The position numbers and the translations under genes were made by a program. Below, one piece after another: positions 3,355 through 55,430 of a stretch of DNA of 64,000 nt. This DNA comes from Tribonema minus. Its lineage: Eukaryota > Sar > Xanthophyceae > Tribonematales > Tribonemataceae. The notes under the pieces are model-generated. The model worked only from the letters and a program-made list of their open reading frames with translations. It made no database searches and was not told where the DNA came from. The stretch spans positions 1,302,001 through 1,366,000 of the forward strand of contig JAFCMP010000445.1 in NCBI GenBank assembly GCA_017506865.1. Reading direction: 5' to 3'. The number at the start of each line of letters is the position of its first letter. The stretch's first letter is position 1.

Positions 3355-5634
3355 TTACAGTTTACTATTCTGAGATGGTGGAAAATACAATGGGTCGAAA
3401 CCCAGCACTGTCAATACGCACTGTCGAGAAATGACAGTCAACCCCAGCTGTTTGGCACGATCGAGCACCGCGCTAGACTCTGAGCCGGGTTGCAGCCATA
3501 GGTACTTGATGCCCGCCTGCGCTGCATCGTCCATGACGCGCATTGTTACATGTGGTGGCGTCACCACCGATACGGCCACCTGCCAGGCACACACAGACAC
3601 CAAACAGGAGGAATTTATCTGATTACTCATGGTCAAGGGCGGATGCACGATGTCACCGACTTCTACTAGCAAATTTCACTTTATGTGTGGTGGCGTCACC
3701 ACTGATATGGCCACCTGCCAGGCACATACAGACACCAAGCACATTAGAGTCTAAGGGCAGCGCCCAACGATGCAAACCAACACCAGCTATGTACTTGATG
3801 TGTCGTGAAGTCACCGGTCACAATGGGCGGGGGGGTGATGGGGCCACCTTTTGAAAGAAGGTCGCAACGAAAATGAGTGAAAGTGCCAAGGTGTCATGGA
3901 TTTATCACCATGCGCTGCGGAGAAAGCCGTTGTGATGTGAGCAAAGAAATGGACCTTGGAAGCAAGCAAGCAAGCAAGTGAGAAGCATCTTTAGCACCGC
4001 AATGGTGGTGACCTGACAGGAACGGGTGAGACAGGCTTGCAGTCGGCAGTAGAGAGCGTTATTTTATGCTGCAAGTACACGTGCATTTGCACGAGAGGGT
4101 AAGCAGCTTTGCGACTATGCTGATAGCACGTGCAGACGGGTAACGGTCTGCTCTGAAATTCCCAACCGCGTGACGCGCCCTTGACACATGATGCAGTCAT
4201 CGCATGCACACCGCTTCTGCGCATTGCTCATCAACTGTGCCAGTCTTTTGCCCGCCACCTCAACGCTTCTCACCCTGTATACGTACCCTTGAAGTAATTA
4301 CTCATGGGTGTATACTGTCAACCAGTCCGCATCCATGCGCACCCCATGATCACCACATCTCATAGGCAAGCAGCACGGGTCTAGATACAATACCAATAAC
4401 AATGTACCAAGAGCCACATGGCACCTGTGGATGCACCAACGTGCACAAATTGCCTGCACACGCCTGCACGCTGCAGCTTGCGCAGCACTAGTTCAACATG
4501 AAGTAGCTGAGCGCTGGTGACGCACCTCACTCCGCGGCTCCGGCAGCTGCGACAGCGAGGCCACACACGCCACGCCCTCTATAGCCATTGCCTTGGGGTT
4601 AACGGGAGTCACGGCACGATCGTGCTGCAGGTAGCAGCGCAGGCACTTGTTGCCATACTTGGTGCGGTCCTGGCTTGCTCCCACCTGGGGTAGGTAAGTA
4701 TGCCTGGGGTTAGTTATGGTTACAAGTAGGTTAGGGTGCGGGCAGCTGGGGTAAGTAGGGTTGCGCGCACCTGCGGTTAGTAGGGTTACATATGTTAAGG
4801 CGGGTGTGGCAGATGTCGAGAGGAAGTCGATGTGCAGGTGCTTGCACCCTGTGTGCGAGCAGACACTCTCGGCACTGCAGTGTGGCAGAGTTCACGTTGC
4901 GGTTGACCGCCGCGCTGCTAGTTTGTCTCTGAGCAAGTACAAAGGTTTCGTGGGCACCATGCGGAGCGGTGACATGCGATGGATGCATGCAGGGTGCAAG
5001 TCTGGGCGGCGCTGCTTGTGCAGAGAGGGCAAGCTTGTTTACTTTGACGTCACCACGGAGCGCCCAACACGCAGCACAGTACAGCTTCAGCGTTGTGATG
5101 CGTCAATTGTAGCAAACCCAATCACACAATCAAGTGTGACTGAGACTCCTCAAGCTGGCATGTTAATAGGTAGAAACGATTGCGGAGACATCTATTCTTG
5201 CCCCCGACAACAGACAACAGATGCCAGTATCCATGAGTTCTTGCTATGGGACGGTGGCAGCTGCGGAGTTGATCGCTTGGAAGTTCAAGCGCGAGCCATG
5301 CGTACCCAGCTGTAATACATTACAGACTTGCACAGCGATCTTCTGGCAGCTCACACGGACGTGCCGTGCTGCTGGGCCTTACTCGAAAAATTCGGTTCAA
5401 GTTCTTTAAAGAAAAAGATTCACATGCACAATCTTACTCCAAACTAGCATCGACAGTCAAGATACATGCTGAGGTCTCGCGGCAGCTGAGTGCGTCGTGC
5501 ATCAGGCAATACGCTGTGCTTTCCAAGTGAAAGAGACGCAGCCACCGCGGTCGACTCACCACAGCGTAGCGCGGATGTGCCAAGAAAGCCACCACCTGCT
5601 TCGGATCTACGGAGCTCTTCTTCTTGCTCGACAT
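3355..5634 (-). CDS. CoA-binding domain protein (YccU-like, CoA_binding_2), three exons
   Basis: Exons on the minus strand are 5634-5560, 4684-4526 and 3579-3355, all joining in phase 0, giving 152 residues, the usual length for this family. Residues 1-25 begin MSSKKKSSVDPKQ and lead into the first strand (FLAHPRYAV). Exon 2 supplies VGASQDRTKYGNK, then PVNPK, then SLSQLPEP. Exon 3 supplies VAVSVVTPPHVT and GIKYLWLQPGSES, followed by QCVLTVLGF. These are the Rossmann-type CoA-binding motifs (VGAS..R.K.G, VNP, TPP, WLQPG.ES) in family order. Donors are GTGAGT and GTGCGT; acceptors end CAG. Members bind CoA, but their reaction is mostly unknown. The TAA overlaps a possible donor (GTAAGT), so a different C-terminus is possible. 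An upstream in-frame Met at 5697 is an alternative start. Confidence 0.87.
3686..3739 (-). repeat. Tandem copy of the exon 3 acceptor of the CoA-binding gene
   Basis: This block repeats 3551-3604, which holds the end of intron 2, the CAG acceptor and the first bases of exon 3. It still carries TGCCTGGCAG followed by GTGGCC and the codons for the VVTPP motif. The copy lies inside the intron, about 135 bp upstream of the true acceptor, and does not continue into the rest of the exon. Confidence 0.8.
4685..4800. repeat. Degenerate TTAGGG-like repeats next to a splice acceptor
   Basis: Intron 1 of the CoA-binding gene holds loose repeats of CTGGGGTAAGTAGGGTTAC type right beside the exon 2 acceptor. 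They resemble decayed telomere-like DNA or short decayed copies of the acceptor itself (CACCTGGGGTAGGTAAG). The two readings cannot be separated by eye. Confidence 0.4.
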
Positions 5635-6349
5635 GAAAACCTCCAGTGCTCTTCCAGTAGGAGTGCCCTGGTGTATCAGCACAGTGCTGGAGCACACACA
5701 CCAGCCTCACCAAAACCGCGATGGTGAAGTTCACTTCAAGTTCAAAGTTCAACGTCAACTTGAAGAAACATGGACGACCTAACCGCACGCACCCAACAAA
5801 TGCAATGGCAGCGAGTACAGCAGTCTTCCGAAATACGCGCCCCGCCCTCTGATTGCGAGGGCTAGCCGACCGCGCCTGTGCTGTGTACTTCCAGCGCCGT
5901 CTGAGCAGCCCCTGATTGCCAAGTCAACACCATCCGCTTGTGAACGGCGAGTTCTTGGATCCGCTGCTGTCCCAGCCGCCTGCGCCTTGACACGCCCTGG
6001 CGGACATTTGTAAAATGCTAATAATGATGATGCGGCGCGCCTGAGAAGCGGGGGGCCGTCACACAGCTGAAGCTTTGTCTCTACGCACAGTTACGGTTAG
6101 GCTTCACAATGTTCAAATGTGAGCTAATGTGAGGTCCAGGTCTATTGTCCTTTAGCCGCAAAGCTGTCCATTTTGACCTTAACGGAAACAAAGCAGTACC
6201 AACAGCGGCACTCATGACAGCAGTGATCCGTTGTGACTTTTCTGAGGGCTAGCCGACCGCGCCTGTGCTGCGAAGTTTATGTGCTCTCAAAGCACCATGA
6301 GCAGCCTTTTTGGGAGTTAAGCTAGCACTTGTGTACAGTGAGTCCACAC
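5635..6349. repeat. Upstream region with a decayed copy of the next exon
   Basis: The block from about 5850 to 6065 is an older duplicate of about 6240-6460: both start with GGGCTAGCCGACCGCGCC and share CTGCTGTCCC, CCTTGACAC and GCGCCTGAGAAG further on. The left copy no longer keeps an open frame. At 5731-5766 lies a cluster of the ACTTCAAGTT/AACTTGAAG motif that recurs through the window. No gene is visible here apart from the start region of the CoA-binding gene. Confidence 0.55.
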
Positions 6350-6457
6350 CTGCTGCTGTCCCTGCATCCTGCGCCAGAAGACCTTGACACCCTGGCCGGC
6401 GATCTCAAGAGCCTGTGATAACTGTGGTGCGCCTGAGAAGAAGTCGTCGTCGTCACA
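6350..6457 (-). CDS. Orphan exon of an unrecognised minus-strand gene
   Basis: A 36-codon open exon is bounded by a CTGGCAG acceptor and a CAGCAG/GTGTGG donor. The peptide starts CDDDDFFSGAPQLSQ and continues ALEIAGQGVKVFWRRMQ, which looks like a helix-strand coding segment, not noise. Phase is 0 at both ends, which would fit the exon candidate at 7536-7928 just upstream. The frame also runs on to a TAA at about 6323, so this could be a last exon. A decayed duplicate lies near 5950-6060. I do not recognise the family. Confidence 0.4.
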
Positions 6458-7535
6458 CTGCCAGCGGAGCACTTTCTTCGTTCACGGTTAATGATGCTGT
6501 TCGCTGCCACCGTCGCTTCCCGACATCCTCGAGGAGCGTGGTTTTGGCAAGCAGTGCAGAGCTAGGCTGCTGCTGAGGCCCTGCGGCTGAGGGCTTTCAT
6601 CGGTCCTCATTCGACTCACTGCTGGAGCTAAATCCTGTGCCGCAGTTTTCGCCTGCCAGTGCCCCCCACCCACCTCCAGGGCCCTTGCTATATATGACAT
6701 AGTAATGCGGGCCAAGTCTATACAGCCATTGAGCCTTCATGTATACCATCATAATGTCAAAACGCATCAATATCAATCACAGCGCGCATCTGCTGCCTCC
6801 TCATGGCGACTCACTTTTTGAGCCAGTTGCAACACTGCGCGGCATCCAGTGCCAGGAAGGTGCTGTGGCTGTTGGGACTCACTCTCGTGACGAATGGCTG
6901 CACTCAACCATTTGAGAGCCGGTCTGGTTGGCATATGAGCCGTGACTTGACGATAAAGTGATTGGCACATCAATTCAACTCAAGAGAAGGTCGAAGGCTG
7001 TGCTCCACAAGCAGGGTCAAAGCAAGCCGTCTGTCTTACAATATTATGGCAGCCTCTGCGTTGCAGAATCATGGCAACCTCTGAACAGATAATTCTGCAG
7101 CAACAGCACACCTGACACTTTTTAGAATCGTCTCAGCAAGCTCTTCTTGTCCGCAACAGGCGACATACTTGGTACCTTCTAGTTGCAGAGCAGTTTTGCA
7201 GTGTGGCCAGCAGCACAAACGGGGGGGAGAGGGGGGGCGCAAAAAGCGGGGCGCGCAGGCGCAGTTGTGGCAATCTGATGGTTACAAGTGGTCACCATTT
7301 GTTCACTCAGCCTGCCGCAATGTAGACTCCACCAATGGCCCTGCATCGCCACAAACTTCCTTGTCGTCACGTCATGTACATCTTGACAGTGCAATGCACG
7401 GCACTGCGACCTCGCATGTCGACCATTAGCGACATTAGCCACCCACCTCTTCCAGTTAAACCTCTACACAGGCTTACTCAGAGTCTCAAAGTGCACCACC
7501 ATTCTTACACAAGAAAGAAAGCCACAATATCTTAC

Positions 7536-8056: not shown

Positions 8057-11000
8057 TTAAGTGTTGATGCCGTCGAGCATCGCTGTGATCGCGTGCACCG
8101 CGACGACCGCCTTGGTCATGCCGATGGGCCAGTAGGCGTGCACAAAGCGCCAGAGCGTGGGGCCCGCGAGCATGGCGTAGAGCGGCATGATCTGCACGCG
8201 CGGCGGGAGCGTCACAGGGCACAGCAGGAGCGCCACAGGGCGCGGTAGGAGCGTCACAGGGCGCACCAGGAGCGTCACAGAGTGCATCAGGAGCGTCACA
8301 TAGTGCATCAGGAGCGTCACAGAGCGCAGCAGCAGCGTCACAGAGCATAGCGGGAGCGTCACATGGCATGTCAGGAGCGTCACAGAGCGCAGCAAGAGTC
8401 CCAAAGCGCAGGAGCGTCACAGAGCACAGCGCGAGCGTCACAGGGCGCAGGGGGAGCGTCACAAGGCACGTCAGCAGCGTCACAGCGTGCAGCGGGAGCG
8501 TCACAGAGCGCAACAGGGGTCACAGAGCGCAACGGGAGCGTCACAGGGCGCAGCGTCAGCGGATGGTGACAACATGACGCGCAGTCAGAAGCTGATTAAA
8601 AGGGCTATAGTTTGTAGTCAGTGGCGTAGGGACGTCAAGGTAAGGCTAGCCGCGACTTGACGCGCTCTTGTGTCACCATTTCCACAGGGTTGTTGAAGCG
8701 ACACAGCAAGCGGAAATGGGATGGAAGCAGCGCATAAGGAATCCACAGCGTCGCCGTGGACTGCGAGTGAGTAACCGTACAGAGCTGATGGCTATGATGC
8801 TGATGGTTATGATGCTGATGGTAACGACGTAAAATTTCACAACGTGGCCTTGGACTGAGTGACTGATGGCTTCTTCTCCTCAGCACATGCATGCGGCTGT
8901 ATCTCAAGTCACAAAAGCCGGCCAGGTGCATGGCGCGCTGCTGCACAGCACTCAGCAGAGAACAAAAAGGTTCATGTAGTTGGCAGACAAGACAGCACCC
9001 CACTCAGCACCGTTTCCCCAGCCTGAGCGTTGTGGATGAGTGGCATACAGTTGTTTACAGGCGCATTCGCAGCATAATCATGTGGTCACGTGCATTAGCC
9101 AAGGGGCCTCAAGCTGCACCCATGTTCATCTACGGCTGCCCTAAGAACAACCGCTGCCTCAGCGCTCCACCAAACATCAGTGCTCAACTGGAACCACATA
9201 CACTTCGAAGTACGACAGTCAGCGCCAGGGTCCAACCACATGGGTGATCAATCAGAGCCACACGCGACCGGAGTGAGGGTTAATGCTAGGGCAAGACCAC
9301 AATCAGTGCTTAGTCAGCCCACAAAAGGTCAGAGTTAGGGTTAAGGCTAGAGTAAGACCACATCAGTGCTCAACGAGCCCAAATAGGGTAACAGCTAGGG
9401 TTAAGACAAGGGCAGGTATTGCTCACCTCCGTGGTCAGCCAGCCCAGCACAGGGTTGCCAGGGATAGGCCCGACGGGCTCCAGCGAGTTGCTAGACGTGC
9501 TGGCTGTGGGCCTGGCCTTGGCCTTCTCCGCATCGGTCGCATCCGCCCGCGGCTTTGCGGCCTGAGGCCTGTTTTCGGCCATAATCTTGGTGGCATGCTT
9601 GAGCGCGTTGGCCTCCACGCGACTCACGGTGTGGCTGCGGTGGCAAGCAGTCGCGTAAATAAGATGAGTTGCAGAGCTGAACACGTGCCGTGATCTCAAG
9701 AAAAGAAACAAAAAGCGTCGGCACAGTGTGGCGGCGGTGGCAGGCAGGCGTGGATAAGATGAGTTGCAGTGCTCAATATGAGTGATGCATGCCGTAATTG
9801 CACAAAACACGTCAAGCGGTTCTGAGGTGCCGGCGAAGAAAGGCTCGCAGGCTGCAGAGCAAATTGTCACTTCACCATCGCAACGCAGCTGAAATTCTTG
9901 TAGCTGATGGCCGTTCGCGCAAGTCATGGCAAGTATCACATCGCCGGTGCTGCCAAACCACGTGCTGTCACGACTGCACAGAGCAATGAAGGTTTATGGA
10001 AACGAATCAAAAGATCGTAGAGCTCTAGGTGACAAAGGATGTTTAGCCGCAAGTGCCTTCCACCAATAACCGTGGTCGCCGCTGTTGCAGTCATCGGCCA
10101 CGAGTCAAACAGTGCCATCATATCCACAGGTCAAAAGACTTCTGTGTGCGAGCTTTGTAGCGTTCGAGGGCATGGGTGTTCAGTATGGAAAGGTCTGACG
10201 TGTTCGGTAGGCCAGCTCCAGCTGGTAGCCCAAACACAGGAGGTGCAGCAGCTATTGACAGCGCTCTTGAATGCGCGTAGTGTAGAAGGTGGTGTGCGGG
10301 GTTTTGAACCAAACGTGCGGCGACACGAAGGCTCCAGGTTGTTTAGCACGAGCTATCCGTAGCGTTCTCCTTTCCTCACCTACGAGCAGTAGTGTAGCAG
10401 CGGAGCGCGTGTCAGGAGCCTTGTCTGGTCCCCTAGCTTCGCCGCGCTAGAGGTGTAAACCACCTGTTCTAGCTCCATCTACCCAGTTTCCACTCCGTCT
10501 CGGGTAGTCCGTCAGCAATGTTTAAAAAAGGCAACGTATGTGGTACGTAATAGCTTTATTTTCCTCGACTTATTGATTATGCAGGGCACCGATATGTGCT
10601 CCCCTGCATAAGCGAATCATATTCAATGATTCACATTATGTAACTTCCCGTTACATCCTGATTCAACCGGTTCATCAAACTTCAAGTTGAAGTTGAAGAA
10701 AATGAGTCGTACGGTCAGATCACCCCAGAGTGGGGGTGAAAAGTCCCATTTGCATTTGCAGGGAGGTTCCCTGTACGCACCATATTCAAAGCTTTGAGCC
10801 ACACTACTTAGCTTTGAGCCACACTACTTAGCTTAGGTTGTGGTGATTCATAGCTATAAATACCGAATAAATACGCTAGTCGTATTTATTTTTGTTTGTT
10901 GGCTGTTAATTGACGAATGATAATTCTGAAATACTTTTTAGCTAATCGTTCTGATAAATGATTGACATGATGTCTATTGTGTACTTTGGCATACCTCTTG

Positions 11001-14000
11001 CTAAAGTTTCTGAGCTTAATAGTGAGTCTGAATGTTGAATATCCGTGGTTGATCATGTCCCTGGAATATGATATGACCCTGTTCATGAAATAATTTGGTT
11101 TGGTGATAATTCGAGTAAACCTGTACAATTGTGACCAAAAGACACCATACCTTATCTCGTCGGAAAGTATTGTCAGCATGGTTGGAAATCGAATGTAATC
11201 CTTGAAAACGGGCATGTGTCGCAGTTTATCATAAAGGTCTATGGTAAAATGCTCAGTTTTTGTTACCTTGATTTGTAAGTCAAGATAGTCTACTGTGGTA
11301 CCTGATTGTTCTAGATTGAGTTCCTGTAAATATCTTGTTAGCTTTGCAAGTAACCTAGAGTGTTTTCACAAACACAAATGTTGAAAATGGGGTATGATTT
11401 TCTTCCGAAAGATTCAAACCCCAAGCAGTGCGCCCGCAGGAGCGTCACCTGCGGCCCTCGTCGTTGTCGCGCTGGAAGACGAGCACGCCTTCCTTGTCCT
11501 GACAAGTAGAACAATAAAACGTAGAGACCAGTGATGCGGCGGGTAGGGACGAGCACTGAGTGAACAAGTGCAGCGAAGACGTTGAGTGAGACACTGTTGC
11601 CACTACACTTCCCAGGAACGTTTTGCCAGCATCAGATCTCGCATCAGCCGCCAACAGACAGGCTCACACGCGCACTGTGTGTGCACAGGCTCTGACTTGT
11701 CCTACACCACAGCCCACCTGATTAGGGAATTGTGATTGTAGCAGCGCTCTGTCGCGCCCTGCGAGAAGCACGTGCGACGTGCGCTCTGACCTAACAGACC
11801 CTACACAAGCTCTCAGACGGCCCTAGTGGCTGCGCAACTGGCGCACGGCGCGCGAGCCTGTGCGGCGCAGTGCAGCGCTGTGCACGAAGTACGAGCGACG
11901 TGCGCTCTGATCTACCAGATCCCGCACAAAATCTCAGATGATGCCACTGAAGGAGCAACTGGCGCGCGGCGCGCACCTGCACGGCGCAGTGCAGCGCCTT
12001 GCGAGAAGCACGTGCGGTGCGACACGCGCTTTGACCTACAAAATCCTGCACACGATCTCAGATAGAAGTGCATTCCTATTGAACGGCGCAATGCATTCCT
12101 ATTAAACGGCGCAAGTGGCGCACAGCGCGCACCTGTGTGGCGCAGTGCAGCGCCATGACGCCGTCCTGCGCGAAGAACGTGCGCAGCGACACGGGCGCGG
12201 CGTGCAGTGCGCCCAGCGCGACGGCGGCGAGGCCGTCCGCCAGATGCAGCGACCCGCACTGCACCTCGCTGCGCAACGCACAAGAGAAGGTAACTTCCGC
12301 AGGTGACGCACCAAACTAGTGACACACCACACTTCATGTCAAAGGTTGTGATGGGAGGCAGGTGCAGCGATCCGCACTGCGCCTCGCTGCGCAAGGCACA
12401 ATTGTAAGAGAAGTCAACTTCCGAAGGTGACACACCACACTTCTCATCACAGGTTGCGAGACTCCATGTCACAACGCGCCAGGTGCAGCGATCTACACTG
12501 CACCTCGCTGCGCACGGCACGGAGGCTAGACGCAACTTCTGCAGGTGACGCACCAGACTACGCATCACAGCACATAGGGTTTTGTATCGCACCGCGCCAA
12601 GTGCATGGCACAACATCACCATTGAGAGAACTTGAAGAAAGGCTGCGCATGGCCGCAGTATCCAGATCAGCGCTGTCTAATTGGCGCGTTTTGCGCCAAG
12701 CATGGCAACTCCTGAAAGTGGAAAGCTCATGGCAGTCACAAACTGCGAGGTGTGAAGCGCAGCCACGCACTGTGTTGTTTTGCGTCTACTCACTTGAAGT
12801 GCGCCTCGAGACGGCCATCTTCCACGCTGTACAGTCCGCTGATGGTCTGTCCCACCGGAGGCAGTGCACAGCAAGCAACACAGCACAGCAGCAGCAGCAG
12901 CAGCAGCAGCGTGTCATTCAGCCGCATTCTAGGGCAGTACAATGGACGTGTAGCAGCCTGCATGGGCAAGCGAACTGCAGGCAGCGCCTCCTTCACACAC
13001 TTGGACAAGTTGAAGTTGAGACACGATATGCGTTCATTCAAGAGCCCTTGATCTGACCAAAGCAACACAGCTCTCATCCGACATGAGCCTTCACTTCAAG
13101 CTGTCAACAGCATTGCAAGGTTCTCGCAACCCGAACGCAGCGATTGCAGCAAGCCCTGACACTGTGGCCACTGTGCGCTGACGCACCTCTGTGATTCGGA
13201 AGGGGCCGCCGCCGCTCCGGTCAATTTTAATGTGAGGCGCAGGGGCCGCACCCAGGCGCATGTCGAGTCCGCCGGAGTTGCTGCTGGGGCTGGCCCATGC
13301 GCCGCGCGCCGAGCGGCCGGGTTGCAGCTCCGGGACGATGCTGCAGATGCAAGTGTCAATGTTGAAGTTGTGTGAGGGGAGTGAGGGGCGCCTGAGGATA
13401 ACTTTTACACAAGGCCTTTCATAGATGATCTCCAGTAGCAACGGGCCGGGCTACCACTCCTTCAGCTATACCTTGAGAAGAAAGGCCGCCCCAGGTCCCA
13501 ATTCGGCGCAGATGGTGCATCGTGAAAGTGAGCAACTGTGAGTTCCTTGTGATAACTTATGGTCTGAACACTGCACTGTGCTGTGGAAGAGCATGAAAGG
13601 CCGACAACTGACACGCCATTCACTCATACACGCAATGCCATGCATTCTGCCATGATCCATTGATATGACTACACACGTACAGCACGGCTCTCAGCGTGTA
13701 CCTGTAGCCAGACGCTGAACACAGCATAACATGCAACGCATTCACACATTCATTCATGAATTCATGTGCGCTCGCCAACGCTATTCATGGCAGTGATTAT
13801 GATCAGACTGACCTGCCAGCGGAGAAGACCAGGCGATAGAGGCCCTGCAAGGGCGTCTCTGCAACCATGTCCGTTGCCTGTGTCAGGTACACACAACAAC
13901 AAAGGGCAGGACGAGAGGTGGATGAGCACTGCTGCGGTGCCAAAAAAGCCACAAAAAAGTGAAAGGCAAATAAAAAAAATCCAGGGCCCACAGACACAGT

Positions 14001-17000
14001 CACATTATCCTACCTCAGGTCTGCCATGGGCCCATGCACCTGTTCGCGCTAACATGAATGACATTTCGTGCTGCTTGTAATTGCACCATATGCATGTAAT
14101 ACACCGACATTTGCTTGATCTGACAGCTCCGCTCCACTGTGCTACTTGCAAAAAAAAAAGTATCGTCCAGACACTGTCCAATTGCGGCAGTCGGTGGCGT
14201 GACACAACACAATTGGCCCTTCAGTGTTGTTGAAAACTGCACGGTCAAGCAATCGACATCAACAGTATCAACATTCAAGAGCACTGCTATCAAGGTACCG
14301 TCATGCAGGGGGGCTCACCTTGGCGTGTGCCTGCAGACATGCCAGCGCCTCGAGCATCGTGCCGTAGGGGATGCGCTTGTCATTCACTCCCTGCACCACA
14401 CACCAGCAAGTAAACATGAGGCCACACGGTCCACTGCTGGTCTCTCCAGTGATGAGAAAGGTTGTACAAGAAACGGGGCCGAGAGAAGGAAGCAGCAATC
14501 ACCGATGGATGACACGCGGAGTGCGGGCCTGAATACGTCTACGCAGCGGACACGTCAGACGTTACAAATATGGTTGGGTTGACCTCTCGTCCCCTGCGCC
14601 AGGTCTCACATCGGCCGGCAAAACCAGATCACTTGAATGACAGTAGTCCTGTGGCATGGATGCTGTGTCGCTTCATCTTGTGAAACCGCTTGTCAGGCGC
14701 ACCCTTGGCCATGAACTTCAACATGAGACCTTTGTGCTCAATGGCAAACTTCAAGCAGATGGGTGGCAACACCAGTGCTACAACATGCGACACTCCACAA
14801 CAATGCGCGTTCAGAGTCACACACAGGTTCACATACAACACACACGCGTGCTACAATCATAACGCGTTGTTGGTGGCACAGAGCAGATGATTTCGCTGAC
14901 GAGTAGTCACCACAAATTGTCGTCACACCGCCCTACAAGGCACAATTGGACACCCCTCTCAGTGCATATGATGGCTTGGTTTCAAACCTCAGAGCGCTCA
15001 CAAGTCGCTGCGCTCTGACGAGATGCATGTTGTGGCTCAACGTCGCCTACTCCCACACACCACCCCTGTGCCGCCGTTCACTTGTCCTCATACAATGCCT
15101 TTGTCCACTTAGCATGTGCGAACAGTGCCGTGTGTGAGCCTGCAATGCAGACACCGCAAGGTTGCATTCTGACGCCGCCCGGGCCTAAACTTCAATGTAT
15201 AAAGTTCAACATACGAACTGTACCTAAAGGACACCTGGGGCACTTGCAGTCTCTGGCATCAGCGCTCCATCAAAGCACTTGCTGTAACACAAGGAGCCGT
15301 CCTTCTTGCGCTGCGCAGAGTAAACTTACTTCACAAATGTATAGACTTCAACATATGAACTGAACCTGAACGACCAGGGCAGTTTACAGTCTCTGGCGTC
15401 AGCACTCCGTCAAAGCCCTTGCGGTTACACAACGAGCCGTCCTTCTTGCGCTGCGCAAAATCAATTCAATGCATGAACTTCAACGTATGAACCGTACCTG
15501 AAGGACCAGGGCAGTTGCAGTCCCTGGCGTCAGCGCTCCATCAAAGCAATTGCGGTTGCACAAGAAACCGTCCTTCTTGTGCTGCGCAAAGTCAACTTCA
15601 ATGTATGAACTTCATATGTTCCGTCCTTCTTACGCTGCGCAGCAGAGCAGATGTATGAACTTCAATATATGAACTGTACCTGAAGGACCAGGGCGCTTGC
15701 AGTCTCTGGCGTCAGCGCTCCGTCGAAGCACTTGAAGTTACACAAGGAGCCGTCCTTCTTGCGCTGCGCAAAGTCGCCGCTGTAGTCTACCTCACACTCA
15801 AACGGGCTGCAGCACGCGCACAAGAGCAGCACCTTGTGTGTAAGTTGCTCAAATTCAAGTGCGTGAGGTCGAATCGTTGCCGCGCTGTACACATGAACCC
15901 GCGTGTTGATTTCACTATGAAGCACGATGTGGCTGACGGTGTTGTAACAAGCCCCAGCACACTGTGCTGCGCTGCATTCAACAAGATCCGCACAGATTTT
16001 GCTCTCCCAGCAACAATGTGTGCTTGACACATTCTTCTGTTGCAAAGCCGTTTCAAAGCCCCCATGCAAATAGCCTTAAAATTTGTACATCACAGCCAGC
16101 TCACATAATGCTACATATCAGAGTTTGTCCATTACAGTCAGCTTTTAGCCAGTGGCAACTGATGATAAGAGACAACGTCAGAGGCTCAAAGTCAAAGATG
16201 ACTGTGTGCACGCATTGGCCTGTGCGTTCAATCACAACGGCGGCGCTACGTAGTTGCCTTACTATGTGAAGTGACGTCATATCATGGGTGAAGATGTGTA
16301 GCCACCGCGCTGCAGTCCTGCCGCCCTTCACGTAACATCACACCAGTGACCTCTGCATTGTTTGTCTCTGGCCATTACAACGATGTGTTGTGATATGCTT
16401 CAAGTGAAGTGAACTGACATAATGTGATTTAGGGCAGCAATGCCATGCCAATAAACTGGTGTAGCGAATGGGTGCTGTAATTTTCTGACCTCAGGTTTCA
16501 GAGTTCGATCGTGCAGGCAGCAGATTGTGCTTATGAAATGCTCATCTGGGCAGCTTCACAACCGCTGCGCCAGCAGAGTGCACAACTGCGACACAAAGCA
16601 GTTGACATGTGAAAAGCATCAAGCATCTGCATGATATGATTTACAAGATCAGCTAGTGATATACAGGGCTCATCAAGACTCATGTAATGCAAGCAGGCGG
16701 AAAGCTACTGTATGGCGTGATGAATTTGCCAAAGCAGCTGTGTCAGTTATCGAACAAACTGAGATGTTGCCAGCAGATTCGGCTGCCATTGGTGCTCAAA
16801 CACACGATGTGGTGCTCAAACACACGATGAAAGTGGCCAGTCAGGCGTCACGATACATCGAACAACAGACATGGGCACACTTACACAGCCATATAACTGC
16901 AGGCGAGTACCGTCCAACTGTTACAACAGTAGAATTCAAATTGAGAGAGCCACAGCAGAAGCGTTCGTCCGCGTTGCAGTGCTCATAGCTAGATGCAAAT

Positions 17001-33800: not shown

Positions 33801-33885
33801 GGAGAGGTCAGTCGCGCGCTGCAAAGCAGGACAACCGTAGTCGCGTCGCTCAAACATGTCACGATACACCTGCACGCGGGTTGAT

Positions 33886-39463: not shown

Positions 39464-39469
39464 ATAAGG

Positions 39470-44715: not shown

Positions 44716-47700
44716 ATGGGCGAGCAGGAGCAAGGGGCGGTTTTGCCAGATGCGTCTCCTGCCAGCAAGAACCGAGGCGCTGCCAACACCAGGTGCAGGA
44801 CTCGATTTTTTTGTCGCGTTCCGAGTGTGTTCATGTGTTTGGCACTCACCTGCGATGCTTATGTCGGATCAGTGCTGCAAGAGCAATTTTTGCCAAGAAT
44901 GGCCATTATGCTGCTGTTGCTGTCGTAAGATGAGAATCCTGCAAAGGCAAGCCACAAAAAGCTGGATGTTGCACTTCCCACTTCACGTCGTCCTGTGTGA
45001 TTGCGGTCGACCGTGCTCGTGCGATCTGTGATTTGCTTCAGCCGCTCGCGAGTCTGTGGACAATTTGATTTCTGCTGTTGTCAATGCACCCCACTCGGTA
45101 ACAAATGGCTCACTGTGCACCAGTGTTTGAGTACTTGAAGGCAGCTGACCTGCCATGGTGGCCATTGTGACAAAAAAGTAAGTTGCTGTGGTCGCCTCTC
45201 AATTGCATGGCGACATCCCAAAGATTGACGCTGACCCACATCCGGACCTACTGCTGCAGCGCACAGTGCAAACCAGTGCCGCAGCCTCTGCTCAATGCTC
45301 ATTTGCCACCACTTTCTGTTTTCATGGTCGCAGTCGAAGCAGCTGGTCGCATTCCATCAGCCACGCGGTGTCGGAGAGCGTCAACGCGCACCTGCGCGCG
45401 TACCGTATGACCATGGCAACGCTCATCATCGGAGGCGCTGCGGGCGTGGCATTTGTGGTGCACCGGCGAGGCGTGCGCGGCTTCAGGTCAGTGATCATCA
45501 GTGCTCATCAGTACCCAGCTTCATGCGGTGAGCGCTGCCTTGTGCCTCTGTCGTCAGTAAGGTTATACGAGATCGCGCCCCAGCTGGTATGTCAAAAACG
45601 CAAAAGTCGACAACTGATTTCAGTGCCCCCGCGTCCTGGACACGCAAAACAACAGATATACTGACTTGATGCCCCTGCGTCCGGGACACGCGAATCAACA
45701 AATATTCATGTATATGGCAGGAGGCGAACTTGTTCTTCACTTCATGGAGGAGGCACACTCCAAAAGTATATTTCACAAAGCCCAGGCTCATCACCAGAAC
45801 CATGCCATCAAGAGTACAAACTAGACGGCAGGGGACTTCTTGTGTTTGGCACTCCGTACACTATGGAAGACCCTTCGTACCTGCTCTTGCTGCGCTCCGC
45901 CATGAGAACCTCCACACTATCTACTGGCACCATGTACGGGTTCTGCTGATTCCAGCATACCACTTTCTGCTCTACACGCGCTGAAGGTCGCCGCTGGATC
46001 TGCCGGAAGGGTACTTTGTCAACCGCAGGCGCATAGGGGTGCGCGTGGTGGCAGCGGAGGGGCACGCGACCGACCGGAAGGATGGACTTCAGATGGTGAG
46101 GCTCAGACGTTTCGCGCCCAGCGCTCAGCTGTTCAGGTGGTATGTATGTATGCATTGCAGTACATACAGGTAGGGTGCGCGTGGTGGCAGCGGAGGGGCA
46201 TGCGACGGACCGGAAGGATGGACTTCAGATGGTGAGGCTCAGCCGTTTTGCACCCAGCGCTCAGCTGTTCAGATGGTATGTATGTATGTATTGCCATATA
46301 TGCAGATGGTGAGGCTCAGACACCCCCAGTAGCCAGCGCTCAACTGTTCAGAGTATGTATGCTGTTGCAAACTTCAAGGTATGCATGTATACTTCTGATG
46401 TATATCCTGTGTGAAGCGCATTTGGATTGGCTGTGCAAGTCTGCGAGGTTCTTTGGATGGCTGGTATGCCAGTTGTGCAGTCTGATTGCGTTTGCCGTAG
46501 AGTAGCGCATTGCTTCCTACATGAAGGGTAATGCTGCCTCTGATCATGGCAGAGGTTCCGCGATCTGCAAAGCTCTCGGGCACAAAGCGTTGTGCACCGT
46601 GTGCCGCCTTACTGTTTACAATCTGACACATGCCACAGTTGAATCCCGGCAGTATACAAGGCGCAACGTTGCTCCCTCGTATTTGATAAGCAGCGCGTCC
46701 ACACAGCTTACACACCTGGTTGTGTTGGCCCAGCAGTGATTAGCATGGTCAAGCAGTGATCAGCAATGAAGACAACCACGCGCAGGCGCTGGCACGGATG
46801 CAAACGCGCAAAACCGCATTCCTTATCCGCCGCAGGTGCCTTGCGGTGCAGAGCTCGCCTTGACTCTACTAGAGCTAAGGCTCACTCTGGCTTGACCCCA
46901 ACGTCTCGCAACTGTGGTCACCAACACTTTGCACCGCCGCAAGCACTGCGCTCCGCCGGTCGCTCTCAGCGGCAGAGAGCACACCGGCAAGTGCAGCACC
47001 CCTTCACAGTGCTGACAGCATGCTTTTGTTGTGCTAGCTCAGGATTGCCGAGTCACCTAAAGCAATGATCTGCCAAACAGCTCGCGAACAAAACTGCACT
47101 TCAACTAACGCAAGTGCAAACCTCAACTTGGGCATCTGCCCCTACTTGTGCAACAGCGCCATATCGCAACAGTTGCTGACTGCGTGCCTTTGTTGTACTG
47201 CTGCAGGTGACTCTCCGTCTGGAGCACTTCACGCCCGCGCGGCGGCTGCTGAGGCTGCTGCCCCACAAGCAGAACGAGCCCCACGTGGCCCCCACACAGG
47301 ACCCAGGGCAGCTGCTCCTGGTACGTTGTGTGTACTTTTTTTTCATTTCGCTACGCTGGGGGCGCGAGAAGCCCTCTCTTTGGATGTGCACTCAACGCAA
47401 CACTCATTTTCCGTAGAGAGACTCAAACGCAAACAGGCTTCCCCCTCTTCACATATATGTACTCCTTATGTACTCCTCATGTATAGCCTCCTCAGTGTTG
47501 GAAACTCCGGTTGTTGCGTCGGTGCTATTTGTGGCATGGCACACGTTGAAGTCCGGGTGGGCGTTTTTGAGCCTTGCGTTCCAGTATATGTTGGTGATCT
47601 GGGCCTCTGATCATGATACACAAAGGCATGCATGATGCAGCACCACAACCTTATGATTACTTTAATAGCCTGATGCAGCACCTTAACTTCATGATTATCC

Positions 47701-50700
47701 CCAATAGATCCAATAGATGCGCATACCCCCTAGTTGACGACTTGCTCCCAACAGCATTGACTTCAACTTATCAAGCTGAAGTACTCCTTCGTTCAGCGCA
47801 CCCGCTGATGGCGGCGCGCACAGCACCAATGACACCCTGTACCCCATCCACACGCTTGCGTGAGCACATCAGTTGAGCACTGCTGCATTGCGCCTGCTGG
47901 ACACACTGGCGGAACGCTTTCGCCACCGCGGCCACCGCCCCCCACAACGGCGTTGCACACCATGTTGGCGCACCGCCACGCAACACATCACTGCGTACGC
48001 ACCTGCCGCCTCGCACTCAGCCTCTTCACAACACCTGCCCTTATGGCCTGCTTCGATAGCCAGCGGACGGCACCTCCCGTCTGTCCTCTGTCTGAGCATC
48101 ACTGCAATCCCCCCAGCCCCCCCCCCCCCCTGCCGCAGGCACGGCCCCATCCACTCAGCGTCGTCACCCTTCCCTGCCTTTCCACCGTGCTTCAATCGCC
48201 AGCAGATAGCACCCACCTGCCTCTCCTCTCTCTGACCATCACCACTTCATTTTCCTCCTGTGCCGCAGGCATGGCTCCACACACAAATGATAAGGTCAAA
48301 CATGAAATTTAAACTTGAACTTAAATGGGAAGTTCGAGGTGACCGTATACTACGTATGTGTACTTCTACAAGCTTATCAGGGCGGTGTATGTATATCACG
48401 AACGTATGACATAGAGCCGACCGTATCTGTCAACCCTGCCCGTCTCTTCTGTCTCTGAGCATCACCACTTCGGTTTCCCCCTCCCCCTTCTTCCGCAGGC
48501 ACGGCTCCACGGCATCGCCTGCACGCAGGACGGCCACCGCCCTGCACCCGCACTCAGCGTCTTCGTTACACCTGCCCGTCTGACCTGCTTCGGTAGCCAG
48601 CGGATGGTACCCCCCGTCTCTCCTCTCTCTGAGCATCACCACTTCGTTTTCCCCTCCCCCCTTCTGCCGCAGGCACGGCTCCACGGCGTCGCCTGCGCGC
48701 CAGACGTTCATCACACCTGTCCTTCTAGCCTGATTCAATAGCCATTGGCCAGCATCATCTGCCTCTCCTCTCTCTTAGCATCACCGCCATTTTCGTTGTT
48801 TCGTCTGCCGCAGGCGCGGGTCCATGGCGTCGCCTGCACGCCAGACGGCCTGCGCTGGCTGCTCGAGCACGTGGCGGTTTCGCACGCCACGGGCGTGACC
48901 GCCACCGCGGAACTGCTGTACCGGCAGCGCTGGCGCAGCGCGTGTGCTGCGGCGGGCGCTGCGGACGGTGACGGCGGAGGCGCTGGGGAAGCTGGCAGCA
49001 GCGGCGGCGGCAGCGGTGGCGGCGGCGGCAGCAGCGGCGGCAGCGGCGGCGGCAGCGGTGGCGGCGGCGGCAGCGATGACGGGTTGGCAGCGCTGCGGTG
49101 GGGGAGCGGCGACGGAGGTGCGCGTGGCGTGCACAGAACTGCTTCAAATTTAAAGTTGTCAAGTACATGACGATGCTGATTGCAGTCGCCGTCGCAAAGT
49201 GCGCATGCAGAATAAAGCGACTATGATGGCTGCGGGCGGGAGAGTGGGCCGCAGTAGCGACGGCACCTTGGGCGGGGCGGGCGGCGGTTTCAAGTTGATG
49301 TGATGATCGTTGTGACAGCCGCGTATCTTGTGCCATTGCAGCGCTGCCGTGCCGCGCCTGTGAGAGTCGAGATCGTGCTCTGCTGCTACTTAAGGTTAGG
49401 GTTAGGGTTATTGTAGGGTTGACGATGCCGCGGTGGATCAGTGGCGGTAGCCATGGCGGTAGCCATGGTGATGGTTTGGGCGCACGTGTGCTGCCATTGC
49501 GGCGACACTGCGGCCAGCAACAGCGCATACAGATCATTGTGGAAGTTTATCGTGCAAGTGCACTCTACACAGGCATTGCATGGACACGCAGGGCCCCCAG
49601 CAGCGTGTGATGGCATCACAGCATGCTGGCCAGCACAACTAAAACCACTCACACCTTGCAAGCACCATCGTCACAGCTTATGTAGGTTTACACAACTCAT
49701 CTGGTGCACGGTGGATTGCTGATGGTACTGGCTGGTCTCGATTGCCGCTGACGTGTCTGCGTAATTATTCAAAAATACATGTCACACCTCCATATATTGC
49801 ACTTCAACTATTTTTTGGGGGTCTGATCCTTGCCGTAACCGTTATCTCTTGACACCCCGTCTGATTCCACAGTACCATCTCTCTGCAGCGGCGGCAGCGC
49901 ATTGCCACACACAATGTTGAAATTAGTATGTGTCTACAAGCAGCACTGCTAGCTCTCTTGCATCCGAGCGACCACACCACCTGAGCCGAGAGCGACACTG
50001 CACGCCTGCTGCCCGCAGACCTGAACGCGTCCGCAGCTGCGGCGGCAACGGCGCAGCCCCCCCTGGACTCGGATGATGTGCTCGCCGTGAACCTTCGCTA
50101 CTGGGACAAGCGCGCCCTGCCGTTTGGCATTGGCGGCTACTGGTGGGCTTGGCCGCATGACGCTGGGATCCATCTCATCAAGCAGGGGCTGGCCAGGTGC
50201 GTCACTTGTTGTAGTTCGTGAATTCATGTCTATGTTCGCTGGTGAATGAATGCTCGGCGTGGCCGCATGACGCTGGGATCCATCTCATCAAGCAGGGGCT
50301 GGCCAGGTGCGTCATGCGTCGTGGTTCATGAATTCGTGGCTGTGTTTGCTGGTGAATGAATGGTGGGCGTGGCCGCATGACGCTGGGATCCATCTCATCA
50401 AGCAGGGGCTGGCCAGGTGCGTCGTGCGTTGTAGTTCATGAATTCATGTCTATGTTCATTGGTGAACAAATGGTGTGCGTGGCCGCATGACGCTGGGATC
50501 CATCTCATCAAGCAGGGGCTGGCCAGGTGCGTCATGCGTTGTAGTTGACGAATTCGTGTCCATGTTCGCTGGTGAACAAATGGTGGACGTGGCCGCATGA
50601 CGCTGGGATCCATCTCATCAAGCAGGGGCTGGCCAGGTACATAAATGTTTTGTGCAGTGTTGTTCATGAATTCATGTCCATGGTCACCGGTGAATGAATG

Positions 50701-53700
50701 GTTATAGTTCGTGAATTCATGTCCCAGCTGATGTGTGCAGTGCGCGGGGTACCAATAGCAAAAGCATTCAGCAGGCAGGCCTGGTATATGATATCACGTT
50801 TTGAGTTGTGATTGTTACCAAGTCAATTGAGGCGTACATGCAGCGGTCGGCATGCTTACAAAGGTAGGAACTGGCGAGTACGAGCGATACTGGGGGGTCA
50901 GCAGCCTGCCATTTGGCACTGCAGCTAGCGATGAGCCGTGCATAAGTTGTTCAGGCACCTGTACGGGCAGTTGTGATGCACACAAACATAATCCTAAGTG
51001 ACTCTAGCAGGTCAGCTGACTTGATGTTGAGGTGCATGACTAGGCAGGACCGGTACTTGTGCATTGGGTACTTACCTACGCCAGTTCAGTCCGGGATCAA
51101 GCGCCATCAGGCAGGAGATATGGTGTGTGTGACTGGAGGCGTGCACTGGCTAGCGTAGTGCACCATCCTCCAGGCGTAGCCTACTTCATGTAACGGCAGC
51201 TGAATAAATTCCCTTAAGTGCATGTATGAAGGGCATGCAGGAAAACGCCGTTCATTTGTTTATAGAAGTAGCAGGCCTAAGCACGCCAGCTCACAGGAAT
51301 GCGGAGCCTCGGGTTGAAGCGCAATGCATATGACCTCAAGTGCATCCAGAGCATCATGACAGGGATGTCATTCTAGACAACAGCCACTGCTGGTTGAACT
51401 CTCTTGCAAGTTTAACATAAGCACTGAAGCGCCCATGCAGTACTGCCCTTACATGTAGCGGCCTGATATCGCGTAATTCTGAATAAGACAACGTTCACTT
51501 GGCTGATCTGAAGTGTGTGGCCGCAGTACATATCGCCACACCATCTCCCTGATGTCACAACCTGGATGCACTGTAACACCGATGATGTCAGTTCTTGGTT
51601 TTCCACTCGACTGTCACGTTTGCGCTTTGCAGTCAATCAGATCTGCCGGCAGACTGCTGACCCTGATAGGCAACGCACATGCCGATGGGCGCGTGCCTCG
51701 CAATGGTGCGCCTTGAAGTTTGATGTTGACTGTAGTCACTACTTGATGTGTACTGTCCCTGGCGCGCACGAGCTTCGCGCACAATGCAGGACCCTAAGCA
51801 GCGGCGCTTGACATGGACAACAATACTTTACTTTCTGGTGCTGAAGGTGCATCGCAGCAGCGGGGCTGATGTAATGCTGCTGTGGCGCGCTGCAGACCTG
51901 CCGCGGAAGCGGGAGACGACGCGCTTGCGGATGAAACCGCCTTTGACGGCAGGCAGCGGTGGCCGTTTCTGCCACTGGCTACGCGGCAGGTACGCCGGCA
52001 AGCTCTGAGCACTGCTGCATGACTCGGTGGAAGCTGGCATCCACACACATCGAAAGAATGCATTCGCAGTATTTCATAAGTGACTTACAATGTACCATGC
52101 ACATGTTTCTGAGTATATATGTATATATATATATTGCTGCCGCTATGCAGACTCAACAAGCTACGTCAAGAGAATCACGGTATTAACATTATACTACAAG
52201 TTTTCCCAGCAAGCAAGAAGCTCAAAGTCTTTTACGTCAAGCTACTGAAGGATTATCTTGAGCGATTGCTGCATCAGAAGCTTTTATTATCCCAAAATCC
52301 TACGAAATTTTTCATTGATTGCTTCAATTTTGTTTAGGTTTGAAGCTTTCAAGTTCAAGTGTTTTAAATGGCAATTTTAATATCTTGAATATCAAAAGAA
52401 TATATGTTAATATCGCTTTTTTGTTAGCTTGTTCGCATTTTTCTCATATTTTTCTCATGCACACAAGAGCATCGGTCTGTTTGGTATTCAAAATTAAACG
52501 TGTAATTCCAACAAATTAAACGTGTAATTCCAACGTAGAAGAATTCAGAGATAAACTAGATTTTAAAAGTCGCTTTTTAAAAAAATATTATTTTCAGATT
52601 TTAAAATTGAGGATTAAGTTTTAATGGTTTGAAAAGGTACGCTTCCTAAAAACTGTCTAGAACATACATTGTTGACAAAAACAGGTCTCAAAGAATCAAA
52701 AGTTATCAAATAGAAACTCTAGACCGGCAGGTGCAAAAACAGCATCAACATTTTTTTATTTCAAAATCAACCTTCCATCAGGCGCCTCTCTGGATTATTA
52801 TACATTAACAAAAAGTTCCACTTCTGGGGCTTTTATTATTTTTCTGTCTTTGACTGCCCAGAAATAATCAGTAGGCTGGGTTTCTGATTGAACTTTCTAA
52901 TGAAAACTTTGGCTTTCGTTTCTATTGTCGTTCGATTGATAAATTTTGTAGATGTTGCCTCGTGCCTGTTTAAGAATGAGTCGGCGAGGAAATGATATTG
53001 AAGTTGGAGGGTCACAGAGAATCATTGATACTGAAGGTCAAGGTCGCGTTGAAATGATTAAAAAAAAAGCGCTCTGCAACTGAGGAAGATGAAGTGCTGC
53101 TTTTCCTCCATCATCATCTCTGGGTAAGCGAGCCGACCAAGGTTTAGGAGTAGGCAGCTAAATAATCAAATGAGAGAATGCTACGTCGACCATGCCTCAC
53201 TACCCAGTGCCTGCAAATGACTGGCGCCACAAATAATTCTGCAGCTTTGCCCGATGCAACTGCAGGCGCTTGCTTGCAGGGAGTGCACCACCATCCCATG
53301 CCAGCACGAGCTTCAACCATGCATATGCATTCGTCAGCACACTGTCGGCGCTACATGAACAAAATGTTGCACTTCTGGGGCTTTTATTATTTTTTCTGTC
53401 TTTGACTGCCCAGAAATAATCAGTAGGCTGGGTTTCTGATTGAACTTTCTAATGAAAACTTTGGCTTTCGTTTCCATTGTCGTTCGATTGACAAATTTTG
53501 TAGATCTTGCCTCGTGCCTGTTGAAGAATGAGTCGGCGAGGAAATGATATTGAAGTTGGAGGGTCACAGAGAATCATTGATACTGAAGGTCAAGGTCGCG
53601 TTGAAACGATTAAAAAAAAAAGCGCTCTGCAACTGAGGAAGATGAAGTGCAGCTTTTCCTCCATCATCATCTCTGGGTACGCGAGCCGACCAAGGTTTAG

Positions 53701-55430
53701 GAGTAGGCAGCTAAATATTCAAATGAGAGAATGCTACGTCAACCATGCCTCACTACTCAGTGCCTGCAAATGACTGGCGCCACAAATAATTCTGCAGCTT
53801 TGCCCGATGCAACTGCAGGCGCTTGCTTGCAGGGAGTGCACCACCATCCCATGCCAGCACGATCTTCAACCATGCACATGCATTCGTCAGCACACTGTCG
53901 GCGCTACATGAACAAAATGTTGCACTTCTGGGGCTTTTATTATTTTTTCTGTCTTTGACTGCCCAGAAATAGTCAGTAGGCTGGGTTTCTGATTGAACTT
54001 TCTAATGAAAACTTCGGCTTTCGTTTCTATTGTCGTTCGATTGACAAATTTTGTAGACCTTGCCTCGTGCCTGTTGAAGAATGAGTCGGCGAGGAAATGA
54101 TATTAAAGTTGGAGGGTCACAGAGAATCATTGATACTGAAGGTCAAGGTCGCGTTGAAATGATTAAAAAAAAAAAAGCTCTGCAACTGAGGAAGATGAAG
54201 TGCAGCTTTTCCTCCATCATCATCTCTGGGTAAGCGAGCCGACCAAGGTTTAGGAGTAGGCATCTAAATATTCAAATGAGAGAATGCTACGTCAACCATG
54301 CCTCACTACTCAGTGCCTGCAAATGACTGGCGCCACAAATAATTCTGCAGCTTTGCCCGATGCAACTGCAGGCGCTTGCTTGCAGGGAGTGCACCACCAT
54401 CCCATGCCAGCACGAGCTTCAACCATGCACATGCATTCGTCAGCACACTGTCGGCGCTTCATGAACAAAAAATTGCACTTCTGGGGCTTTTATTATTTTT
54501 TCTGTCTTTGACTGCCCAGGAATAATCAGTAGGCTGGGTTTCTGATTGAACTCTCTAATGAAAACTTCGGCTTTCGTTTCTATTGTCGTTTGATTGACAA
54601 ATATTGTAGATCTTGCCTCGTGCCTGTTGAAGAATGAGTCGGCGAGGAAATGATATTGAAGTTGGAGGGTCACAGAGAATCATTGATACTGAAGGTCAAG
54701 GTCGCGTTGAAATGATTAAAAAAAAAAGCGCTCTGCAACTGAGGAAGATGAAGTGCAGCTTTTCCTCCATCATCATCTCTGGGTACGCGAGCCGACCAAG
54801 GTTTAGGAGTAGGCAGCTAAATATTCAAATGAGAAAATGCTACGTCAACCATGCCTCACTACTCAGTGCCTGCAAATGACTGGCGCCACAAATAATTCTG
54901 CAGCTTTGCCCGATGCAACTGCAGGCGCTTGCTTGCAGGGAGTGCACCACCATCCCATGCCAGCACGAGCTTCAACCATGCACATGCATTCGTCAGCACA
55001 CTGTCGGCGCTGCTGCTGCGCGACGCTGCGCAACACACAATTCGCCACGCTCAAACCAAAGTATTTGCCACTTGTTGAACGCCAGTGGGGATCATTGCTA
55101 GGTTCCCACCAAGAGCTCCGTGCAGCTCGCTCCCCCTGAGCCGATGCCTCACCTTTTGCGCGCACACTCTCTAACCTTAACCCTAACCCTGACTTCAACT
55201 TTACCGTGCAGGAGCTGCAGCGGGACGCGGAGGCGCGCTGCAGAGCCGAAACCGTTGCGCGTCGGCACTTCAACGGTCTGTGGGCGCGCAGCGACGAGCA
55301 GGGAGTTGAAGATGGAGGCGCGCACATGCGCGCCGCCGCGCTGGCGGGCAACGCCGCGGCTGCCGCAAAGCTTGCGGGGGGCGCTCTGAATGTGGTGAGG
55401 GGGTGGTGGCAGCGGCTGCGCAGGCGGTGA
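44716..55430 (+). CDS. C3orf33-like protein (membrane anchor plus SNase-like fold), eight exons
   Basis: Exons are 44716-44792, 45334-45486, 45987-46095, 47207-47320, 48814-49117, 50019-50196, 51896-51989 and 55212-55430. All phases agree, giving 415 residues. Exon 2 has AHLRAY, then a membrane segment (MATLIIGGAAGVAFVVHRRG). Then come SPLDLPEGYFVNRRRIGVRV, VTLRLEHFTPARRLLRLLP, ARVHGVACTPDGLRWLLEH, a Gly/Ser linker, VLAVNLRYWDK, and WPHDAGIHLIKQGLAR. The last exon has ELQRDAEARCRAETVARRHF followed by NGLW, the classic AE..AR....GLW tail of staphylococcal-nuclease-like proteins, and ends WWQRLRRR. This order matches the C3orf33 family of animals and protists. Catalytic residues of true nucleases are not evident. 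Exon 1 (MGEQEQGAVLP) is the least sure. Introns carry extensive junction duplications. Confidence 0.85.
46096..46345 (+). repeat. Tandem copies of the exon 3 donor end
   Basis: The last 58 bp of exon 3 of the C3orf33-like gene and the next 78 bp of intron recur at an offset of 136 bp (46174-46300), with a shorter third piece at 46301-46345. The exon part of the full copy differs at two bases, both synonymous (His CAC to CAT, Thr ACC to ACG). Confidence 0.85.
48060..48720 (+). repeat. Four decoy copies of the exon 5 acceptor
   Basis: The pyrimidine tract, CAG and first bases of exon 5 (true acceptor 48813/48814) are repeated upstream near 48137, 48268, 48498 and 48671. All have TCTGAGCATCAC or close, then a C/T-rich tract, TGCCGCAG and GCACGGCTCCA or close. 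The copies at 48498 and 48671 still read ARLHGIACTQDG and ARLHGVACAPD, against ARVHGVACTPDG in the exon. Confidence 0.85.
48968..49077 (+). repeat. GGC/AGC-rich coding repeat (Gly-Ser linker)
   Basis: Within exon 5 of the C3orf33-like gene a low-complexity stretch encodes about 30 Gly/Ser residues. It interrupts the SNase-like fold between two conserved segments and is probably a flexible loop. Confidence 0.85.
49392..49411 (+). repeat. Intronic telomere-like repeat
   Basis: About three TTAGGG units lie in intron 5 of the C3orf33-like gene. Confidence 0.85.
50148..50720 (+). repeat. 110-bp array built from the exon 6 donor, five units
   Basis: The units start at 50148 (the real exon end), 50258, 50368, 50478 and 50588, exactly 110 bp apart, with a short remnant after 50698. 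Each has about 47 bp of exon 6 (GGCCGCATGACGCTGGGATC through GGGGCTGGCCAG) plus the donor and about 60 bp of intron. The exon part is identical in all five, while the intron parts differ from each other at roughly one base in five. Four units keep GTGCGTC as donor; the fifth has GTACAT. Confidence 0.95.
52100..52810. other. AT-rich intron segment
   Basis: This part of intron 7 of the C3orf33-like gene is clearly more AT-rich than its surroundings and leads into the 553-bp array. Short ORFs exist, but none is recognisable. It may be an inserted element of unknown type. Confidence 0.5.
52811..55013 (+). repeat. 553-bp tandem array, about four units
   Basis: The units repeat with a period of exactly 553 bp (for example the string starting ATGCTACGTC at 53178, 53731, 54284 and 54837) and are about 97% identical. 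Each has an AT-rich half and a GC-richer half that looks like ordinary intron. Two complete units carry the full plus-strand ORF (SRRGNDIEVGGSQRIID, then TEGQGRVE.IKKK); in the others it is shifted by the length of an A run. The array lies in the last intron of the C3orf33-like gene. Confidence 0.92.
55171..55190 (-). repeat. Intronic telomere-like repeat next to an acceptor
   Basis: CTAACCTTAACCCTAACCCT lies 22 bp upstream of the exon 8 acceptor of the C3orf33-like gene, in the position of the pyrimidine tract. Confidence 0.85.

Follow-up and report, generated by a model that had tools for sequence, protein, structure and literature searches.

Duplicated exon-intron borders adjoin the functional ones in four genes of a 64,000-base window

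The window, by which we mean the whole stretch of 64,000 bases of eukaryotic DNA that was analysed, holds four genes that we could model, with 25 exons, 21 introns and 42 exon-intron borders among them.

3355..5634, minus strand: CoA-binding gene, exons 5560-5634, 4526-4684 and 3355-3579
8057..17306, minus strand: plastid-targeted gene, 10 exons, 375 aa, frame intact, GT-AG introns
39470..44512, minus strand: NECAP gene, exons 44397-44512, 43375-43492, 41923-42054, 40991-41135 and 39470-40083
45334..55430, plus strand: C3orf33-like gene from exon 2, 7 exons with an intact 389-aa frame; exon 1 was not found

The three exons of the CoA-binding gene join into an open frame of 152 aa, and residues 22-135 of the protein match Pfam PF13380 (CoA_binding_2) at E 4e-30, a match that crosses both exon joins. 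The five exons of the NECAP model give a 374-aa frame without a break. Exons 2-4 match Pfam PF07933 (DUF1681, E 2e-38) and the NECAP2 chain 6owo (E 2e-27), and these matches cover two of the gene's four joins; exon 1 was placed by a weak Pfam match (E 0.033) that lies under the cut-off of that model. "Plastid-targeted" and "C3orf33-like" are labels taken over from the first-pass annotation, and the two models that carry them are built solely from intact frames and consensus splice sites. The plastid-targeted gene product has no match in Pfam or NCBIfam. Likewise, the C3orf33-like protein has no Pfam match, and nearly all of its matches in the PDB fall in a glycine-rich stretch. A candidate for its first exon at 44397-44472 was rejected, as it breaks the frame and lies over NECAP exon 1 of the opposite strand. 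All modelled introns are GT-AG (20/21) except NECAP intron 2, which is GC-AG and has at 43369-43374 the sole non-GT donor among the 21 (AAG|GCAAGT).

Six-frame Pfam scans covered 3-8, 13-22, 27-32, 34.7-39.7 and 56-61 kb; at 0-3 kb the plus-strand frames were scanned, and the scans also took in some frames of 5.6-8, 10.6-11.45 and 43.3-45.3 kb. They recovered the CoA-binding, NECAP and ankyrin genes and a fragment of the complex I 30 kDa subunit, together with two weak matches below cut-off, DUF4329 and P19Arf_N. The segments at 8-13, 22-27, 32-34.7, 39.7-56 and 61-64 kb were covered at most in part, and further genes may lie in the window, also within the "outside genes" controls used below. 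An Rfam scan returned nothing at gathering score. The ankyrin-repeat coding sequence lies at 192-787 and contains an 81-base repeat. The complex I fragment, at 19167-19253 (Pfam PF00329, E 3e-7), has no further exons that we could see by eye, and is perhaps an organelle-derived insertion or a pseudogene. Inside intron 8 of the plastid-targeted gene, an open frame of 159 codons occupies 10886-11365 on the minus strand; the minus frames of 10601-11450 have no Pfam match. Single-protein scans, which reach close relatives only, found no relative of the plastid-gene protein, a NECAP fragment or the 10886-11365 frame among viral contigs, and none of NECAP among genome contigs.

Nine of the 42 borders, five acceptors and four donors in eight exons of the four genes, recur in the adjoining intron, one to four extra times each. 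Self-comparison matches were accepted from a score of 40 upwards; 20 sets of random gene spans with matched dinucleotide content yielded none, their top score being 30. The duplicated borders, with the features that adjoin them and one orphan duplication, are as follows.

3551..3741, minus strand: CoA-binding exon 3 acceptor duplication, functional 3551-3606, copy 3686-3741
15191..15775, minus strand: plastid-gene exon 2 donor array, four copies (3 extra) of a unit of about 142 bases
12238..12570, minus strand: plastid-gene exon 7 acceptor array, 2 extra copies
11741..12196, minus strand: plastid-gene exon 7 donor array, 2 extra copies, perhaps 3
9625..9776, minus strand: plastid-gene exon 9 acceptor duplication, 1 extra copy, AG lost
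42011..42252, minus strand: NECAP exon 3 acceptor duplication, 1 clear copy, with probable older units farther up
42311..42842, minus strand: probable older units of the NECAP exon 3 array, a direct repeat (d 437)
42453-42688: dispersed element inside the probable older NECAP units, splitting the 42311-42842 copies
46037..46370, plus strand: C3orf33-like exon 3 donor array, 2 extra copies
48012..48850, plus strand: C3orf33-like exon 5 acceptor array, five copies of the 3' splice site (4 extra)
50141..50723, plus strand: C3orf33-like exon 6 donor array, 110-base unit, five border copies (4 extra)
5856..6490, minus strand: orphan local duplication near 6350, 5856-6093 and 6243-6490, about 240 bases

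Every exon with a gene model that the first-pass annotation had named, namely CoA-binding exon 3, plastid-gene exons 2, 7 and 9, NECAP exon 3 and C3orf33-like exons 3, 5 and 6, does carry a duplicated border, and plastid-gene exon 7 has arrays at both. Its description of each copy as part of the exon plus adjoining intron is also borne out: the aligned blocks at 9/9 duplicated borders straddle the existing border, so that intron and exon sequence are both copied. The orphan exon it placed at 6350 fared less well. The duplication there is real, with a local score of 124 against 36 for the best of 300 shuffles, but neither a domain nor a gene model accompanies it, and as an exon it is at most putative.

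Identity between copies ranges from 93% at CoA-binding exon 3 down to about 70% for the oldest C3orf33-like exon 5 copies. The arrangement is mostly head-to-tail, as had been claimed, with the exception of CoA-binding exon 3, whose 56-base copy (52/56 identical) lies 135 bases upstream of the functional acceptor; the 79-base spacer between the two is unrelated to either flank and resembles the filler left where a break has been repaired, or a piece inserted later. The spacers between copies at plastid-gene exon 9 and NECAP exon 3 showed no significant homology (P 0.15 and 0.45). The 42311-42842 repeat probably belongs to the NECAP array as an older portion of it, since a dispersed element separates its copies. 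At C3orf33-like exon 5, the last of the five 3' splice site copies opens into the reading frame. The exon 6 unit of the same gene starts with TGGT, and TGGT follows the last copy, a 4-base microhomology found by eye. The same genes also contain arrays away from borders, at 52801-55011, 9271-9414, 8197-8561, 41162-41323, 40420-40503, 45609-45700 and others.

On balance we favour the view that these copies reflect ordinary short tandem duplication in genes, tolerated since splicing ignores half-exon copies; the probability that we attach to it overlaps with that for pure chance. Duplications with units of about 60 to 175 bases would arise, probably by slippage or microhomology-mediated repair, and the arrays would then expand by unequal exchange. 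A duplication across one splice border would yield a working junction and a half-exon copy within the intron. Exon definition is likely in these genes because their exons are short and their introns long (medians of 132 and 907 bases in the four models), and a half exon without a partner splice site at exon distance would then be ignored and the copy tolerated. Further rounds would lengthen the intron while old copies decay. Because half exons would go unseen by splicing that pairs the ends of exons, their tolerance could be explained without machinery specific to borders. Tolerance alone leaves an excess over intron-only duplications unexplained, and detection covers part of it.

Whether that excess goes beyond chance, as the first-pass annotation had held, depends on what is counted. 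In a founding-unit null, each array was collapsed to one unit and placed at random in genes. A border is spanned by 9/12 events with units of at least 60 bases, where 2.95 are expected (P 2e-4); runs with 40 borders gave P 1.1e-4 or 1.6e-4. The count of 12 joins 42311-42842 to the NECAP array, and with that repeat treated apart the result is 9/13 (P 9e-4). Restricting units to 60-250 bases gives 9/11 (P 2e-5), and admitting all 20 arrays gives 9/20 (P 0.002). Counted over the whole window with units of 60-250 bases, two minisatellites and the long-unit arrays being omitted, 9/16 arrays fall at borders, which make up a 7.5% target (P 5e-7; 3e-5 with a 1.7-fold detection advantage); the seven non-border arrays in this count are at 192, 1307, 9271, 22919, 33211, 40251 and 55788. 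Three further arrays sit 6, 13 and 27 bases from a border. These results speak for borders as true hot spots, at which a border-tied trigger (transcription- or splicing-linked breaks, nucleosome edges or splice-motif microhomology are candidates) would repeatedly start duplications, with introns growing outward from their borders. The tendency of distant copies to be older points the same way: within arrays, divergence increases with distance from the exon in 13/18 comparisons (permutation P 0.08).

Several results weigh against hot spots. Border copies are easier to detect because one partner is constrained, an advantage that a simple simulation puts at 1.7-fold. With advantages of 1.7, 2 and 3, the 9/12 count gives P 0.0035, 0.008 and 0.043, and the 9/13 count reaches P 0.11 at 3-fold; for 9/20 the values are 0.061 at 2-fold and 0.22 at 3-fold. 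Counting plastid-gene exon 7 once leaves 8/12, with P 0.051 at 2-fold, and among events of at least 85% identity 4/5 are at borders (P 0.024, or 0.11 with a 2-fold advantage). A footprint null, in which border positions are shifted against fixed whole-array footprints, is conservative because arrays grow after starting. It found borders in 9/16 clusters, which include a glycine-run repeat and two minisatellites, against 5.5 expected (P 0.033). Adding short-unit arrays gave 9/21 (P 0.19), or 12/21 within 30 bases of a border (P 0.029), the low-complexity coding repeats at 39506-39656, 39716-40081 and 49001-49075 having been dropped from the list of 21. Per position, at score 40, intron interiors lie in local duplications as often as borders do (199/800 and 8/42, the test having missed NECAP exon 3), compared with 27/440 for exon interiors and 20/800 outside genes; the introns are so filled with copies that this test does not tell borders and intron interiors apart. 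Finally, the evidence comes from one 64,000-base window, chosen because the pattern stood out in it. We rate true hot spots as possible, on the unlikely side. A conveyor belt, with borders recurrently duplicating beside the functional one so that older copies are pushed into the intron and introns grow outward, we consider unlikely.

It is also rather unlikely, in our estimate, that chance and attention account for everything, with random tandem duplications, a reader who picked those at borders and no border excess at all. The weak footprint P values and the non-border arrays of the same genes fit such a reading, yet the search was blind to borders and most long-unit events nevertheless span one. 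Local-duplication clusters are themselves concentrated in genes, with 16 in the 26.7 kb of gene spans and 7 in the 37.3 kb of the rest of the window (P 0.006). We read these counts as a suggestive excess at borders, seen with founding units and weak with whole footprints, added to a more distinct excess in genes.

For the most part, the copies look like neutral remnants. Between functional and copied sequence, exon-derived positions diverge by 12% (107/875) and intron-derived positions by 26% (243/928), close to the 1:2 ratio expected if constraint acts on the functional copy only, the pairs not being independent. Between copies, divergence is 13% in the exon part (96/762) and 27% in the intron part (253/922). 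The lower exon-part value fits copies that arose one after another from the functional border, or copies that are themselves constrained; it is unexpected for neutral copies of one age, and in this respect counts against the explanation by tolerated duplication. General selection on the exon half of the copies was considered and rejected. It has support in the C3orf33-like exon 6 array, where variable columns number 4/53 in the exon part and 19/48 in the intron part (P 1e-4) and only the outer exon bases vary, and in the exon 5 array, whose exon part is less variable (P 0.013). At plastid-gene exon 2 (P 1) and the exon 7 acceptor (P 0.24) exon-part conservation is not significant, and the trend is reversed at the exon 7 donor (P 0.026).

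These patterns bear on the proposal that selection keeps the copies as alternative or decoy splice sites with a regulatory effect on output, of which nonsense-mediated decay and recursive splicing at AG|GT are possible routes. Apart from the conserved exon part of the C3orf33-like exon 6 array, what favours it is the state of the splice signals. GT or AG is kept in 18/20 copies, and between copies core splice bases differ less than flanking intron (16/162 vs 253/922), with nominal significance in two of six arrays (C3orf33-like exon 5, P 0.032; exon 3, P 0.047). However, neutral decay at 13% per site predicts about 15/20 retained, so that 18 is near neutral (P 0.10); one copy has GC, and the plastid-gene exon 9 copy is without AG. 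AG|GT occurs at 5/9 duplicated borders compared with 20/42 of all borders. Use of the copies would moreover be harmful, as computed extension of the exon to any of the 19/19 tested copies meets a premature stop and truncates the protein. We consider selection for such a role improbable.

An RNA-templated origin, which had also been suggested and in which reverse-transcribed pre-mRNA or lariat pieces would be reinserted beside their source, is very unlikely: that the copied segments contain a border agrees only very loosely with an RNA intermediate, nothing specific speaks for one, and the copies hold unspliced intron, adjoin their source mostly head-to-tail and, for all nine arrays and both strands, match nothing farther away in the window (E 1e-4).

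For ordinary tandem duplication, tolerated by splicing, count the nine border-spanning duplications in modelled genes, the divergence ratio near 1:2, the premature stops, the near-neutral retention of GT or AG, the excess of clusters in gene spans, the non-border arrays in the same introns and the TGGT microhomology. Against it weigh the over-representation of borders (9/12 and 9/11 in the founding-unit nulls) and the CoA-binding exon 3 spacer, which is not simple slippage. Borders may be somewhat hotter than chance for duplication, and a process started at splice-site motifs, as the first-pass annotation proposed, is possible. Its further idea of long-running intron growth is partly upheld, in that the copies do lengthen introns; the trend for farther copies to be older makes growth over time plausible.

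Minisatellite arrays with polar growth consist of multi-copy tandem units and grow with a bias to one end. The present arrays share both features and differ in that a splice border forms part of the unit and the functional exon fixes one end. A literature search revealed no genome-wide border duplication in titles or abstract openings among the matches listed. The closest precedent, as outlined in its report, is potato RdRp, in which a tandem duplication across an intron-exon border produced a new, RNA-confirmed intron (PMC4974935). There as here, the duplicated segment takes in an intron-exon border, with the intron's 3' end and the beginning of the exon copied together, and direct copies side by side that hold both intron and exon are found at all nine of our borders, with a spacer at CoA-binding exon 3. 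The potato case, so outlined, concerns a single border and a new intron, whereas here nine borders in four genes are involved, donors as well as acceptors, with up to five copies; its splicing is confirmed by RNA, and the copies in the window are known from genomic sequence. In Drosophila cases (PMC2891723), and in those treated by the review PMC3443670, exon segments that carry an AGGT proto-splice site are described as duplicated in tandem. They share with ours a tandem duplication involving splice signals, and intronisation follows in them. Those duplications are described as starting inside an exon and creating an intron; in the window, 9/9 blocks straddle an existing border, none being a wholly exonic segment with AGGT, and an existing intron is lengthened. 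Introner elements, described in Amoebophrya (PMC7789003) as families that spread and that have inverted repeats along with short direct repeats, are similarly repeats tied to introns of protist genomes. Unlike those families as described, the copies in the window are local to one border each, and within the window we found none of their sequences in introns of different genes on either strand (E 1e-4). What is unusual here is the density, 9/42 borders, and the multi-copy arrays.

Should one splice border in five throughout a genome have decaying copies beside it, introns would be growing in part from their own edges, and splicing would regularly have to pass over up to four acceptor copies. 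Long RNA reads for a single assembled genome would put both consequences to a direct test.

Repeats of other kinds are present in the window. The 52801-55011 array, in the last C3orf33-like intron and 200 bases from an exon, comprises four copies of a 551-base unit that are about 97% identical; it is recent and intron-only. A dispersed element of about 235 bases occurs at 42453-42688, in a NECAP intron, and inverted with 82% identity at 9997-10226, in an intron of the plastid-targeted gene. The segment 21922-34900 contains diverged repeats in direct and inverted orientation, the longest of 1.4 kb and many of them about 2.8 kb apart; its 27-32 kb part has no Pfam match. Short internal repeats of the telomere-like TTAGGG type occur at 40322-40345, 41794-41811, 49398-49409, 33890-33901, 38592-38603 and 55178-55189, several of them in introns.
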